Both the position numbers and the translations under genes were made by a program. Below are positions 49,248 through 54,482 of a stretch of DNA of 64,000 nucleotides, piece after piece. Each line of letters begins with the position of its first letter. The stretch's first letter is position 1. The notes beneath the pieces were generated by a model that did not search any database, was not told where the DNA came from, and saw only the letters and a list, made by a program, of their open reading frames with translations. The stretch comes from Gemmatimonadota bacterium (lineage in GTDB: Bacteria; Gemmatimonadota; Gemmatimonadetes; Longimicrobiales; Gaopeijiaceae), in contig JAUIEJ010000011.1 in the NCBI GenBank assembly GCA_030428885.1, positions 1 to 64,000 on the forward strand, written 5' to 3'.

Positions 49248-49318
49248 GGCGCCGTGGCCAAGCGGTAAGGCAGAGGACTGCAAATCCTTTATCCCCGGTT
49301 CGAATCCGGGCGGCGCCT
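49248..49318 (+). tRNA. tRNA-Cys (GCA), integration target
   Basis: 71 nt. Acceptor GGCGCCG/CGGCGCC, anticodon loop CTGCAAA (anticodon GCA), T-arm CCCGG-TTCGAAT-CCGGG. CCA is not encoded. From the anticodon loop to the 3' end it is part of a 46-bp repeat found again at 53143, so the intact gene is at the left junction of an integrated element that rebuilt its 3' half. Confidence 0.97.
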
Positions 49319-49323
49319 CTTGG
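49278..49323 (+). repeat. attL of the tRNA-Cys element (46-bp direct repeat)
   Basis: The 46 bp from the anticodon loop of tRNA-Cys through five bases past its 3' end recur without mismatch at 53143-53188. Flanks differ on both sides (GGA before and ACTT after here; TTC before and CTGG after at the other copy), so the boundaries are exact. Confidence 0.93.
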
Positions 49324-49349
49324 ACTTACGCGCTTTTCCACAGTCTGCG

Positions 49350-49370
49350 TGGGCACAGATTGGGCACAAG
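49350..49370 (+). repeat. Left-end TGGGCACA repeat pair
   Basis: TGGGCACA at 49350 and TGGGCACAAG at 49361, starts 11 bp apart, 27 bp inside attL. The same pair in the same orientation occurs near attR (53006-53026). Candidate arm-type integrase or excisionase binding sites. Confidence 0.55.
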
Positions 49371-49393
49371 CGCCGCTTCCGCGGAGTCTCAGA

Positions 49394-49594
49394 ATGGCGA
49401 AGTACGCGATTGGCGACTTGGTAAAGCTGAAGTCGGGTAGTCCGGTGATGACGGTCTCCAGCACGTTCGTCCCTTTCTCGGGTCACTCCAAGGACGAGAC
49501 GGTCTACACCTGCAAGTGGTTCGCGGGCGCCAAGATGCAGAAAGGGGAATTCCCAGAGCAATCGCTGATCCCGGCTCCTCCTGAGGATGAGTGA
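49394..49594 (+). CDS. YodC-like small protein (DUF2158)
   Basis: 66 residues from ATG 49394. It begins MAKYAIGDLVKLKSGSPVMT and ends with 'YTCKWFAGAKMQKGEFPEQSLIP', the DUF2158 pattern (GD-V-LKSGG-MTV ... C-WF-G-K-Q-G-F-E-L). Function of the family is unknown; members are frequent cargo of phages and islands. The next gene overlaps by 8 bp, so the two form a small left-end operon. Confidence 0.75.
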   Translation: MAKYAIGDLVKLKSGSPVMTVSSTFVPFSGHSKDETVYTCKWFAGAKMQKGEFPEQSLIPAPPEDE

Positions 49595-49868
49595 CGATGA
49601 GAGAGGGAAGGCGGCTGCGGTCGCGTCGTGGATGAAGGGTCAGCTGGAGAAGCACCAGACACTCTACCAGGATGTCGCCGTCCACGAGATCCAGTCCCGT
49701 TTCGGCCCCGAGTTCACCTACCTCAACGACGCCGGAAATCCAGCGATTGACCGCAAGGTCCTCGCGGCGTTCAGGAGCTTGACCGAAGGCTCTGTTGTAT
49801 GGGAACGCGGGGAGAGGTGCTGGCGTCGCCGCGAGTCCTACGATCCGGAAGGCCGGGTCGTCGACTAG
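49587..49868 (+). CDS. Small conserved hypothetical protein (DUF6953-like)
   Basis: 93 residues. The pattern 'ASWMKGQLEKHQTLYQDVAVHEI', FTYLNDAGNPAIDRKVLAAF and VVWERGERCWRRRESYD recalls a small DUF6953-type family in which a helical N-part precedes a conserved 'VWERGE.-WR.R' end. I am recalling the family name and could not check it. Its TAG stop shares the palindromic CTAG with the convergent integrase stop, so the two genes meet tail to tail. Confidence 0.6.
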   Translation: MSDDERGKAAAVASWMKGQLEKHQTLYQDVAVHEIQSRFGPEFTYLNDAGNPAIDRKVLAAFRSLTEGSVVWERGERCWRRRESYDPEGRVVD

Positions 49869-50680
49869 CCACTCCGCCGGGCCCGCTCCTCGGCGGGCTC
49901 CACCAGCGTCAGCAGGTCCTCGGCCACGAGGTGGGAGTACTTCATCGTGGTCCGGATGTCGGAGTGCCCCATGGCGCGCTGGACCTTGTGGGGCGAGTGG
50001 CCCTGCCTGAGCCACTCCGTGACCCGGCGGTGCCGGAGGTCGTGCTGATTCAGGTCCTCGGGTAGCCCCGCCCGCTTCACGGCTCCGGCGAACGCCCGCC
50101 GCAGGCTCCCGATGCGCTCCCCGGCCTTCGCGTGGCGCCGGTCGATCTCGTGGTGGAAGATCCACGGGGCGCGCTGGCCCCCGTAGGTGCGCAGCCGGAA
50201 GGTCGCCATGTGCTCCCGGAGGGCCTCCCGCAGCCGCGGGGTCATCGGGACCTTCCGGGTGAGCCCACTCTTGTTGCGCCGGCCGCCCCGGACCGACTCC
50301 ACCGTCAGGAGTCCCCCCTCGAGGTCGACATCCTGCCAACGGAGCCAGAGGGCCTCAGAGTCGCACCGCAGACCCGCCTCGCCCAGGACGAGCACGTAGG
50401 TCCGGAGCATCGGCCGGCCCTCGCACGCGGCCACCAGGGCCTCGTACTGGTCCGGATCGAGGATCAGGGGCTCCCGGGTGTCGCCCTCTGGCGTCTTCGT
50501 CTTCGAGACCGGGTTGGACTCCACGATCTCCAGCTCCTCGGCGAACGAGAAGACGATGTGGAGGACCATGCGGTCCTTCGCCACGCTCCGCGCCGAGAGG
50601 GGCCGGCTGCGCTTCGAGCCGTCGGGCCTGGCGCGAGCGCCGCCTCGCCTTCTGGCGGGACGCTCAGGATGCAGAGGCAT
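49865..50680 (-). CDS. int: Tyrosine recombinase/integrase, probably 5'-truncated
   Basis: The catalytic domain is complete: Arg in GEAGLRCDSEALWLRW, the beta-hairpin Lys in RRNKSGLTRKVPM, HDLRHRRVTEW (HxxR), GHSDIRTTMKYSHL (His and Tyr nucleophile). Coding character begins about 50635 (PDGSKRSRPLSARSVAKDRM, the end of the core-binding domain). The open frame continues to 50962, but that part is Arg/Pro-rich noise antisense to another gene fragment. I list ATG 50680 (271 residues). The arm-binding domain and most of the core-binding domain are missing, so it is probably inactive, yet it explains the tRNA-Cys integration. Confidence 0.8.
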   Translation of the reverse strand: MPLHPERPARRRGGARARPDGSKRSRPLSARSVAKDRMVLHIVFSFAEELEIVESNPVSKTKTPEGDTREPLILDPDQYEALVAACEGRPMLRTYVLVLGEAGLRCDSEALWLRWQDVDLEGGLLTVESVRGGRRNKSGLTRKVPMTPRLREALREHMATFRLRTYGGQRAPWIFHHEIDRRHAKAGERIGSLRRAFAGAVKRAGLPEDLNQHDLRHRRVTEWLRQGHSPHKVQRAMGHSDIRTTMKYSHLVAEDLLTLVEPAEERARRSG

Positions 50681-50850
50681 CAGTACCGCTACCCGATGAG
50701 GACGGGATGGCCCGCGACCTGGGGGAGGCCATCGTGGCACCGCTGCACGCCCTTGGGGTCGAGCCCGCGGAGGTTGGCGAGGCGGCTCTCTCGAACTACA
50801 TCCTCGCGATGGTGGCCGCCCTGACGCCGTTGCCCGGCACCCTTCGATAG
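50629..50850 (+). pseudogene. 3' fragment of an unknown gene abutting the integrase
   Basis: On the plus strand a frame without start runs to TAG 50848-50850 and reads like real protein: 'WRERRLAFWRDAQDAEASV', then MARDLGEAIVAPLHALGVEP and AALSNYILAMVAALTPLPG. It runs antisense over exactly the part where integrase coding character disappears. I read this as a deletion or rearrangement joining two broken genes. An internal ATG (50707) could give a 47-residue peptide. No family recognised. Confidence 0.45.
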
Positions 50851-50871
50851 GATCCGGGTGGGACCCCTGAT

Positions 50872-51312
50872 CTAGCCGCGGACCCCGGCCAAGATGGACT
50901 TCGCGGCTCCGTCGGAAAGCCCCTGAATCAGCGCTATCGCCCGGGTTGCGCGCTTGCGCCAATCCGGAAACGAGTCAAGGGAAGGGGCACCGGTTGGGGC
51001 GAGAACGTAGTCGGCGTCCGCCCGGGCGTCCTCCAAGTGCTGCATATCGACCCGGATGGCGTGCATCTTTCGGTTGTTCTGATCTATCGCGGCACGCTTC
51101 AGCCCCAACTTCAATCCAGAATGCGAGCTCTCACCCAGCTCCGCCATCTCCCCATCGCTCGTGGCTTGCCTGACTCGAGATTCGAGCGACATCAGTATGG
51201 CGTAGTAGAGCCTGCCGGCGGCCGTCCGGCGTAACGCCTCGTCGTCAACGCCCGCCGCTGGCTCAAGGCAATGGTCAGCAACAGGCACCCACAGCGAAGG
51301 ATCGAACGTCAC
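50872..51312 (-). CDS. HEPN-like helical protein, last gene of the island operon
   Basis: 146 residues; ATG 51312 overlaps the upstream stop (ATGA). All-helical. 'LRRTAAGRLYYAILMSLESRV' resembles the first HEPN helices (R-YYA pattern), and 'RVDMQHLEDARADADYVL' gives an RX4H plus an R-ADY end like HEPN proteins. HEPN proteins include RNases used in toxin-antitoxin and anti-phage systems. The match is by pattern only and the RX4H position is not classical. Confidence 0.6.
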   Translation of the reverse strand: MTFDPSLWVPVADHCLEPAAGVDDEALRRTAAGRLYYAILMSLESRVRQATSDGEMAELGESSHSGLKLGLKRAAIDQNNRKMHAIRVDMQHLEDARADADYVLAPTGAPSLDSFPDWRKRATRAIALIQGLSDGAAKSILAGVRG

Positions 51313-51689
51313 TCTGCCCTCGCGACCAGGGCAACGTAGGCGTTCCCCCCCTCCACTTGCGCCTGGAGCTCGTCCTGGATGGCGAGTCGATCCGCCTCCT
51401 GCGGGACCCTTGCAGCGACCACGATGCGCCAGTCAAAGAGTTGCGCCGCCCCCCTCATTCGCTTGCAGTTGACCTCAGCTCCCGCGTCGAGGTTCTCGCG
51501 GGCCCACCGCGTCACCGCCGCAAGATCCCTATCCGGAAGAGACGGTTCGTGAGAGGAGCGAGTGGACTCGACAACCCAGATCGTGCCCCAAGCAGACTGC
51601 GTTTCGATCGTGCTCACGACTCCCCCGTCGAGAGACAACTCCTCCTCGCGGGAAGCGTCCGAGCCCAGAAACCGCGTAATCCTATTCAT
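51309..51689 (-). CDS. Unknown protein, fourth gene of the island operon
   Basis: 126 residues from ATG 51689, inside the end of the upstream gene (8-bp overlap) and overlapping the next start by 4 bp. Predicted alpha/beta, with 'GGVVSTIETQSAWGTIWVVES', 'DRDLAAVTRWARENLDAG' and DWRIVVAARVP. No cysteine cluster, membrane helix or known catalytic motif. I do not recognise the family. Tight coupling implies stoichiometric expression with the neighbours. Confidence 0.65.
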   Translation of the reverse strand: MNRITRFLGSDASREEELSLDGGVVSTIETQSAWGTIWVVESTRSSHEPSLPDRDLAAVTRWARENLDAGAEVNCKRMRGAAQLFDWRIVVAARVPQEADRLAIQDELQAQVEGGNAYVALVARAE

Positions 51690-51999
51690 CCGAACTGGTC
51701 TCCATCCCCGGGAAACCACTCGCCCCAACTACGTCCACGATCCGGTCCCTGAGGTCGATGAGGCCGGCCATGGACAGCATGAAGCGGTGAGTGATTTCGG
51801 GCGCCACTTCGACGGTGTCATCGTCGGATGCCCGGTCCCTCGCACCCTGAACGATTCTTGCGAGATCGGCATACCCGACCAACAACTCAACCTCTCCGCG
51901 CGCGATCGAAAGGTGGAAGAAGTTGGCGCCCTGAGGGGGGGGGAGCGTCTCGTTGAGCTTCAACTGGACCCTAACCTGCGCCTGCTTCTCTGGCATCAT
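51682..51999 (-). CDS. DUF3467-like small protein, third gene of the island operon
   Basis: 105 residues (two consecutive ATGs at 51999 and 51996; AGGGA upstream). The order 'ANFFHLSIARGEVELLVGYADL', then 'VEVAPEITHRFMLSMAGLIDLRDRI', resembles DUF3467: a 'NF..I..S..E..L.FG' strand pair, an acidic stretch and a terminal helix. Family function is unknown. 18 nt after the previous small gene and overlapping the next by 8 bp. Confidence 0.65.
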   Translation of the reverse strand: MMPEKQAQVRVQLKLNETLPPPQGANFFHLSIARGEVELLVGYADLARIVQGARDRASDDDTVEVAPEITHRFMLSMAGLIDLRDRIVDVVGASGFPGMETSSDE

Positions 52000-52017
52000 G
52001 TTTCCCTTGCGGAGTAC

Positions 52018-52206
52018 CTAGAGTCGAGCCTGCCGAGAAGGGAGTAGAGTATCGGCAGCAAGGAAGGCCAGGGCAAGAGCTGCAGGTGGCGAGCGGTTGG
52101 GCACAGCCGTGCCGAAATACCCGAATCGGAGCGAGTTGAGGGGCGCCCATTGCCCGAAGCCCTCGTCCGCGCCAGACGGGGCCTCCGGGGCCGCCCGCTT
52201 GTTCAT
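52018..52206 (-). CDS. Small hypothetical protein, second gene of the island operon
   Basis: 62 residues. Its ATG shares one base with the upstream stop (TGATG), so it could be translated by re-initiation. Pro/Ala/Gly-rich start, then 'PPAALALAFLAADTLLP', a short hydrophobic stretch. No family recognised. Supported mainly by position; the alternative is an untranslated 200-bp spacer. Confidence 0.4.
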   Translation of the reverse strand: MNKRAAPEAPSGADEGFGQWAPLNSLRFGYFGTAVPNRSPPAALALAFLAADTLLPSRQARL

Positions 52207-52979
52207 CAGGGTGCGGCGGCAAGGCCCCTGGTCGCACAATGGATGTAGTCGAAGGTGAGGATCGCCCGGAGCGAATTGACCCGACTCCCGTATCCAACGT
52301 CGGCGCCGTGGAGCACCGCGTGCCGGCTGAACTCTGGAGTAGTGCTGGCCCAAGCGAAGCTCTCGAGTAGCCGCTTGGCAACGAATACACGGGCAGCCTG
52401 ATCGAACGGATTCTGCTCGGACAGCGCGTCCTGCAGGTACCGCTCCAGGCGCTTTCCTGACAGGCGTCCCTGGTGTCCGAAACGCTCCGCCAAGACGCCC
52501 TCGACCTGCGGCAGTAGTGCCGGGACCGAGAGGAGGTATTCGCCCCTGATGTGAGCCTCGACGGCAGCGTCCAGGATCGGGAGCCGATGACTGAGCTGCC
52601 CGTCATCAGCCCATCCAGCGAGAAGACCGCGGACTCGCGGCTCGTCGTAGAACTCGAGGAAAAGGTCCTCCACATCTCCCTCGGTCAACTCGCCCCGCTT
52701 CAGGCCGTCGGCAAGCTGATCCAGAGCACCGGCGGCGAGGTCTGTCGTCGGCGGCCACCCCATCTGGATCAGGAACGCACCCCAAGCCTGAGTCCTCAGA
52801 TGCAACCGCTGGAGCATTCTCGTGAGGTCGACTTGGGCTCGCACCCAGTCGGAAAGAACGCTCACGTCGGGTAGGCTCCGCCGGACATCCTCTACTAGTG
52901 CCTCGACCTCCGCGTGACGCCGCTTCATCTGGGCGTTGAAGCGGCTCACGGTTTCAGCCACCTGCTCGAATTCGTTCAT
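52206..52979 (-). CDS. HEPN-like protein heading the island operon
   Basis: 257 residues from ATG 52979 behind a G-rich RBS; the longer frame adds only a His/Gly leader. Helical throughout. The C-terminus, 'EFSRHAVLHGADVGYGSRVNSLRAILTFDYI', has RHAVLH (RX4H) and the 'HG..YG...NSLR' continuation seen in HEPN-type helical proteins linked to abortive infection. The N-terminal half (QMKRRHAEVEALVEDVRR) is coiled. I infer a possible RNA-targeting effector. Not proven. Confidence 0.6.
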   Translation of the reverse strand: MNEFEQVAETVSRFNAQMKRRHAEVEALVEDVRRSLPDVSVLSDWVRAQVDLTRMLQRLHLRTQAWGAFLIQMGWPPTTDLAAGALDQLADGLKRGELTEGDVEDLFLEFYDEPRVRGLLAGWADDGQLSHRLPILDAAVEAHIRGEYLLSVPALLPQVEGVLAERFGHQGRLSGKRLERYLQDALSEQNPFDQAARVFVAKRLLESFAWASTTPEFSRHAVLHGADVGYGSRVNSLRAILTFDYIHCATRGLAAAP

Positions 52980-53005
52980 CCCGCCCCCCCCATGGTGGCC
53001 GTTGC

Positions 53006-53026
53006 TGGGCACAAGCGTGGGCACAA
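53006..53026 (+). repeat. Right-end TGGGCACA repeat pair
   Basis: TGGGCACAAG at 53006 and TGGGCACAA at 53018, starts 12 bp apart, same orientation as the left pair at 49350-49370. Also upstream of the minus-strand operon, so they may double as an operator. Confidence 0.55.
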
Positions 53027-53142
53027 CAGTAGTCCGCGAAACCGAAACGGACCGTGATCAGAGAAGGTCGCGCCACAGGGATCGCCCCGCCAACCCTACG
53101 GATCCGACCAATCTCGAACGATTCCGAAGGCCCGGCAGATTC

Positions 53143-53188
53143 CTGCAAATCCTTTATCCCCGGTTCGAATCCGGGCGGCGCCTCTTGG
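53143..53188 (+). repeat. attR of the tRNA-Cys element (46-bp direct repeat)
   Basis: A perfect copy of 49278-49323, holding only the anticodon-loop-to-3'-end part of tRNA-Cys; no 5' half precedes it. Marks the right end of the element. Confidence 0.93.
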
Positions 53189-53256
53189 CTGGTACGGTCG
53201 AGTCAGCGGTCGGGTCCCTCGGGGCCCGGCCGCTTTCTCGTATCGGGAGGGTGTGG
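53169..53256 (+). repeat. 88-bp repeat, copy 1 (tRNA-Cys 3' end plus its terminator)
   Basis: Matches 53414-53501 with a single mismatch (T/C inside CTTTCTCG). It starts in the tRNA T-arm part of attR and continues into native tRNA-Cys downstream DNA. The two copies are 245 bp apart. Between them, 157 bp (53257-53413) hold only GC-rich inverted repeats and no credible gene. Confidence 0.9.
53205..53237 (+). terminator. Original tRNA-Cys terminator, copy 1
   Basis: Stem AGCGGTCGGG with CCCGGCCGCT (one G-T pair), 10-nt loop, then TTTC. In the uninterrupted chromosome it would lie about 17 nt after tRNA-Cys. The element has pushed it 3.9 kb away. Confidence 0.6.
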
Positions 53257-53413
53257 CGCCGCCCGGACGAGGCGGCGAAGCCGGCTCGGGGCCGCAACTG
53301 CGGCCCTTCGAACCGCAGGTTCGACCCGAGGGACGACCCGGTGCTCCGAAGGCCTGGGCACCGACCCCCGAGGGGAGCGAGGATCGCCGCCCCCCGGCGG
53401 CGACCGGAGCTCC

Positions 53414-53501
53414 ATCCGGGCGGCGCCTCTTGGCTGGTACGGTCGAGTCAGCGGTCGGGTCCCTCGGGGCCCGGCCGCTTTCCCGTATCGGGAGGGTGTG
53501 G
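53414..53501 (+). repeat. 88-bp repeat, copy 2 (second att/tRNA-Cys remnant)
   Basis: The first 20 bp repeat the end of the att core (tRNA-Cys T-arm, acceptor and five flanking bases), the rest repeats the tRNA terminator region. A leftover attachment site from another insertion or a duplication at the same tRNA. Confidence 0.9.
53450..53482 (+). terminator. tRNA-Cys terminator, copy 2
   Basis: The same 10-bp hairpin as 53205-53237, displaced by 245 bp, with TTTCCC instead of TTTCTC after the stem. Confidence 0.55.
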
Positions 53502-53513
53502 TGCCGTTCCCCC

Positions 53514-53700
53514 CGCGCCCTCAACCCACCCGAACTCCGAGAATCCTGGCGTTGTGGAGACTTCGGGGCGCCATACCGCACCAAGTCACCCCACGACGGC
53601 GTCGACGGAAACGTTGTGGATGATTGGGGGTGCTCCCGCACCCCCAAACCGACATTCGCCCGGTGGAGCGGGCGGTTCGGGAGACTTGGCGGCGCGGCCC
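53514..53700. repeat. 187-bp direct repeat, copy A
   Basis: Recurs at 54211-54397 (offset 697) with only scattered mismatches. It contains a 10-bp perfect stem TTGGGGGTGC/GCACCCCCAA (53624-53647). Non-coding. Fills the gap between the att remnant and the small secreted-protein gene. Confidence 0.9.
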
Positions 53701-53763
53701 GGAGACTTGTCCGACTGGCACCGCGGCTCGCACTTTATCGGCTCCTCCAATCGAGGCCTCTCG

Positions 53764-54210: not shown

Positions 54211-54397
54211 CGCGCCCTCAACCCACCCGAACTCCGAGAATCCTCGCGTTGTGGAGACTTCGGGGCGCCATACCGCACCAAGTCACCCCACGGCGGCGTC
54301 GACGGAAACGGTGTGGATGATTGGGGGTGCTCCCGCACCCCCAAACCGACATTCTCCCGGTGGAGCGGGCGGTTGGGGAGACTTGGCGGCGCGGCCC
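54211..54397. repeat. 187-bp direct repeat, copy B
   Basis: Copy of 53514-53700 starting 13 nt after the secreted-protein stop; its internal hairpin could terminate that gene. Its end runs into a 68-bp-period tandem repeat. Confidence 0.9.
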
Positions 54398-54482
54398 GCG
54401 ACGGGCAGAGCTGGACCGCGCGGCGCGGGAGAGCGGGCGGTTGGGGAGACTTGGCGGCGCGGCCCGCGACGGGCAGAGCTGG
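54363..54482. repeat. Tandem 52-bp repeat, period 68 bp
   Basis: 54363-54414 and 54431-54482 are identical 52-bp blocks, each ending GACGGGCAGAGCTGG. The first overlaps the end of the 187-bp repeat copy B. No gene. Confidence 0.85.

Follow-up and report, generated by a model that had tools for sequence, protein, structure and literature searches.

In a 64,000-nucleotide stretch of Gemmatimonadota DNA (the window), a tyrosine integrase gene on the minus strand runs back to back into an open frame on the plus strand. Are these two broken genes, what broke them, and can the element that carries them still move? An earlier note, made from the letters of the DNA, had claimed that one deletion took the integrase's 5' end along with most of another gene. 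We propose, with a probability of about 0.82, that the locus is a small tRNA-Cys island of 3,865 bp, and that its own integration module was wrecked by a DNA-losing rearrangement, which joined the integrase gene to the gene for an XRE-type regulator. The features are listed in Table 1. (Other genomes, contigs, and loci are given by our own G, C, and L numbers.)

Table 1. Features of the tRNA-Cys island, in window coordinates.
Feature	Position	Strand	Basis
tRNA-Cys (gca), integration target, intact copy	49248..49319	+	ARAGORN
attL, exact 46-bp repeat (tRNA-Cys 3' part and four further bases)	49278..49323	+	
Cargo gene, DUF2158 family	49394..49594	+	Pfam PF09926, E = 1.1e-13
Cargo gene, DUF6953 family	49587..49868	+	Pfam PF22266, E = 1.1e-26
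Remainder of tyrosine integrase (end of core-binding domain, whole catalytic domain)	49865..50628	-	PF00589, profile, alignment
Junction of the two broken genes	50620..50640	.	profile ends meet
Last 73 residues of putative XRE-type regulator, DNA-binding half missing	50629..50850	+	
Cargo gene, phrog_5176-like	50872..51312	-	
Cargo gene	51309..51728	-	open frame, coding GC pattern
Cargo gene	51682..51999	-	open frame, coding GC pattern
Cargo gene with RHAVLH	52206..53024	-	open frame, coding GC pattern; phrog_28904 (28 residues, E = 4.9e-5)
attR, second copy of the 46-bp repeat	53143..53188	+	

A small island at a tRNA-Cys gene

The island (49278–53188) is bounded by two exact 46-bp repeats, which lie 3,865 bp apart. 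Both of these att repeats are intact, and the core of the repeat had a match in 0 of 100 shuffles of the window. In G001, a genome of the same genus, the left flank, the tRNA-Cys gene, and the right flank are contiguous. The locus therefore has both features expected of a genomic island integrated at a tRNA gene: an empty site in a related genome, and the tRNA's 3' end repeated in direct orientation on either side. Its contents are the DUF2158 and DUF6953 genes, what is left of the integrase, the fragment on the plus strand, and four other genes on the minus strand. We found no phage or plasmid relatives of the island's DNA.

The right flank is itself repetitive. A stretch made up of the final 20 bases of the tRNA-Cys repeat and the DNA downstream (53169–53261) recurs 245 bp further on (53414–53506, 98% identity); similar repeats are present in G001, and in G003 as three copies about 241 bp apart. 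The same flank also has a 188-bp direct repeat (53514–53701 and 54211–54398), with copies that are 97% identical and 697 bp apart.

Two truncated genes and the junction between them

The earlier note held that the integrase's catalytic domain is intact and that its 5' end is gone, and the comparison with full-length homologues agrees on both points. The catalytic domain is whole (Pfam PF00589, E = 4.4e-25), and it has the R, K, HxxR, H, and Y that tyrosine recombinases conserve: in the alignment, the catalytic motifs LRCDSE, NKSG, HDLRH, GHSD, and YSHL look complete. The frame has no stop codon and no frameshift. Homology to relatives is restricted to 49868 to about 50628, and the window's integrase corresponds to positions 106–362 of 363 in a home-made profile (49877–50626, minus strand). 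In the part that they share with it, full-length relatives from G024, G252, and G191 (386–391 amino acids) have 65, 65, and 64% identity to the window's integrase, and that of G040 (397 amino acids) has 56%; these figures shift slightly with the stretch compared. In the alignment, by eye, ARPDGSKRSRPLSARSV of the window's integrase pairs with HQPDGSTRSRPLSSRSV of G252, and the match stops just past PDG. Pfam finds the SAM-like core-binding domain (PF02899) in the proteins from G024 and G040, and not in the window's integrase. Judged against these relatives, the predicted protein lacks about 130 N-terminal residues, namely its arm-binding region and the greater part of its core-binding domain.

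We considered that this might be a naturally short integrase. We rejected this because full-length relatives align beyond the break and no complete aligned relative starts there; among the homologues examined, no close one has the same start as the window's integrase. A frameshift instead of a loss was also rejected, since inspection by eye of all three frames upstream of 50640 on the minus strand showed no integrase N-terminus, and a profile search found none either. The in-frame start codons past the break (ATG at 50680, GTG at 50740, and TTG at 50962) all read non-homologous sequence. When the N-terminal part of the G024 integrase was compared with the window's genome, residues 112–160 matched at 50540–50674 and there was one weak match (E = 0.037); by this search, the lost part has no copy elsewhere in the assembly. 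The second-best integrase in this genome is 32% identical to the window's, relatives in viral contigs are 22–34% identical, and searches of solved structures returned distant tyrosine recombinases only.

On the plus strand, the peptide appears from its homologues to be the C-terminus of an XRE-type helix-turn-helix regulator of about 200–300 amino acids. This is in keeping with the earlier suggestion that the opposite strand encodes the natural C-terminus of another protein, as are the plus-strand GC pattern (0.81, 0.51, and 0.81 at codon positions 1, 2, and 3 over 50629–50847) and the profile match described below. Single-protein matches to the frame are weak (best E = 2.3e-5, per genome, in a search of 394 genomes). 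Seven of them sit near the C-terminus of frames of 134–266 amino acids, and the clearest of these have an N-terminal HTH-like region. (L071, L074, L076, and L077 looked unrelated and were excluded; lower matches are outside the set.) Since these seven had been picked for matching the fragment, we made a second profile, from the C-termini of 12 further members. The fragment matched it with E = 2.3e-9; none of 2000 shuffles did better than E = 0.1. The 12 members lie outside our alignment A2 but were found by the A2 profile, which holds the fragment, so the test is only partly independent. Given the second profile and the shuffles, we rejected a chance open frame on the plus strand.

The fragment's homologues are indeed longer, at about 200–300 amino acids as stop-to-stop frames, and one of them (L073) is itself damaged. 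What the fragment has is the C-terminal domain of the XRE-type family: in a home-made profile of the regulator family, positions 132–199 of 216 fall at 50620–50835 (plus strand), so the DNA-binding half of the regulator would be missing. The N-terminal helix-turn-helix is absent from the window. Within the family, HTH_3 is below Pfam's cut-off (E = 0.01–0.02 in three of the seven proteins). The peptide has no relatives in plasmids or viral contigs, and its one phage match is at chance level (E = 9).

The two truncations coincide at a single sharp junction, where the fragments lie head to head. We placed it where we did because the ends of the integrase and regulator profiles meet there. Frame-specific GC follows minus-strand integrase coding to about 50640 and the plus-strand frame from then on, which fits the earlier estimate that integrase coding character stops at about 50635. 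No relative has the same junction: among 58 genomes, including the window's own, only the latter spans it, and G040 matches the integrase part alone.

How the two fragments came to be joined

The double truncation is best explained by a loss of DNA that put the integrase out of action. A DNA-losing rearrangement would have fused the integrase gene, broken in its middle, to an XRE-type regulator gene broken in the same way. The lost DNA would have encoded the N-terminus of the integrase (its arm-binding domain along with most of the core-binding one) and the DNA-binding domain of the regulator. The integrase and regulator fragments have 72% and 71% GC, as against 58–65% for the cargo on both sides, and this shared high GC suggests that they originated in one module. 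On the other side, the integrase's intact frame, with a GC3 of 0.95, may still be expressed, or the event may be recent.

How are such genes arranged elsewhere? Besides the window's own, the A2 profile found 31 sites in 26 other genomes (394 searched, including the window's). We read the flanks of 30 of these sites, several of which are cut by contig ends, and 12 have an integrase nearby. The regulator is upstream of the integrase and co-directional with it at eight of the 12 (L083, L084, L228, L229, L232, L237, L244, and L249), the integrase is upstream and co-directional at one (L080), and the two are tail to tail at three (L230, L235, and L245); none is head to head. Without the five sites where the C-terminal profile is below threshold (L230, L232, L237, L244, and L245), the counts are 5, 1, 1, and 0, in the same order. 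A further search of the order with the regulator profile added none. In G259:C18, a damaged integrase that is 66–67% identical to the window's is immediately preceded, on its own strand, by a regulator homologue. The intact integrases of G252, G191, and G289:C86 have co-directional upstream neighbors. The G024 integrase has, upstream and at the edge of the contig, a co-directional fragment with a weak resemblance to the regulator's C-terminus; 8 of 500 shuffles reach its score.

Internally damaged copies of the integrase family were found in three of the 17 other matched genomes (G259, G362, and G106). We also noticed another shortened integrase of the family in G106 (L282, 4544–5279), beside tRNA-Cys; a copy of the tRNA end, with one mismatch, lies 2,902 bp away.

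A single deletion that took out both 5' ends and the intervening promoters of a divergent integrase (minus strand) and regulator (plus strand) would need the fewest events. It would also leave the right side as found: the fragment's stop codon is 21 bp from that of the minus-strand gene at 50872, which is a natural tail-to-tail spacing, while an inversion and a second deletion would need luck to produce it. (We did not accept a native terminator in 50850–50872 as proof of the tail-to-tail arrangement, as the folding is no better than that of shuffles, with z of 1.71 and 0.99.) However, a simple deletion is unsupported by the relatives because it needs a head-to-head ancestor, which was not found: the integrase-linked sites are co-directional (8 + 1) or tail to tail (3), and the genes upstream of the close intact integrases are co-directional as well. 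So while both genes are truncated and DNA was probably lost, as the earlier note had it, the single deletion is not established, and we hold it tentatively, at somewhat below even odds. An ancestor with the regulator followed by the integrase on the minus strand would fit the relatives' layout, including that of G259:C18, and the high GC that the two fragments share. In that case a segment with the regulator's 3' part and the integrase's 5' part would have been inverted, and both 5' parts then lost. But this takes at least two events, the second breakpoint must hit the 21 bp between two stop codons, and a profile search detected no integrase N-terminus to the right of 50850 on either strand. 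We regard this course of events as a little less likely than the single deletion.

The junction could also be that of two elements, if tandem tRNA-Cys islands were joined by a deletion or an illegitimate event, with the integrase coming from one and the regulator and cargo from its neighbor. The GC mosaic across the island would fit, as would the repeated targeting of tRNA-Cys by this integrase family; but this seems unlikely given that there is no internal att copy between the two 46-bp repeats and that the fragments are alike in composition. Finally, the junction was seen in only one of the 58 genomes searched, as would be expected of an assembly chimera. We give this explanation hardly any credence: the assembly has 23 contigs, and the junction is inside a 254-kb contig, within an island that is bounded by matching att repeats.

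Mobility, cargo, and comparison with known systems

On its own, without the domains that bind core and arm sites, the catalytic domain of a tyrosine recombinase is not known to assemble a recombination synapse. Because the window's integrase is left with a catalytic domain that lacks these partners, self-excision should be lost: the truncated protein would be unable to grip the core sites or to build the synapse. Reasoning from the sequence, the island is probably fixed where it is. With both att repeats intact, a helper integrase might still rescue it. Members of the integrase family are near tRNA-Cys in G024, G034, G252, G289:C86, G331, and G106 (others are near other tRNA genes), so there may be helpers in the wider class. 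One could go further and suppose that the remnant is alive, with a catalytic-only integrase (from ATG 50680) and a short regulator peptide (from ATG 50707) being expressed, and that the island is a satellite moved only by the integrases of other tRNA-Cys elements. We consider this very improbable. If the integration module was wrecked, as we propose, then the locus is an example of a small island becoming fixed, in which integrase and regulator were lost together and the cargo and att sites stayed intact.

In relatives, the slot between tRNA-Cys and the integrase holds defense-like cargo. In G252 (L272, 2829–5722), this stretch encodes a TIR protein (PADLOC TIR-TM, E = 3.2e-48), and in G289 (L274, 2749–6467) it encodes an Mrr/nSTAND3 protein (PDC-S73, E = 1.4e-142). 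The DUF2158–DUF6953 pair occupies this slot in the window (49324–49865) and is a candidate for a role in defense. The location of such cargo is a handle for finding more of it.

As for the minus-strand cargo, homologues of the 50872–51312 protein occur in three other genomes of 295 searched, with two close together in tandem in G055 (L286, 1495–1788 and 2411–2701); in the seven loci examined, none is linked to the regulator or an integrase. The 51309–51728 protein weakly matches the end of the PADLOC RT_UG22 model (E = 0.0022, positions 340–422 of 476), and Pfam finds no RT domain in it. Near the C-terminus of the 52206–53024 protein, the R-x4-H spacing of RHAVLH is, by eye, reminiscent of HEPN proteins; this protein has no convincing Pfam family.

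Overall, the island looks like ordinary genome decay in a known kind of element. As in other tRNA-integrated islands with a tyrosine integrase (PF00589; PHROG 1), the integrase reads towards the tRNA and a direct repeat of the tRNA's 3' end is found at either end; unlike in those islands, two cargo genes separate the tRNA from the integrase. The integrase resembles others of its class in its complete catalytic domain and usual motifs, but the arm-binding domain and most of the core-binding domain appear to be gone. Similarly, the C-terminal domain of the putative regulator can be aligned along all of its roughly 65 residues with those of the XRE-type (HTH_3-like) integrase-linked regulators of the same bacterial class, but the HTH half is gone and the orientation is opposite to the usual co-directional layout. 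The decay is of the same kind as in degenerate islands and prophage remnants with truncated integrases. Their breaks end in a stop codon or a frameshift, whereas the break in this island joins two gene fragments head to head.
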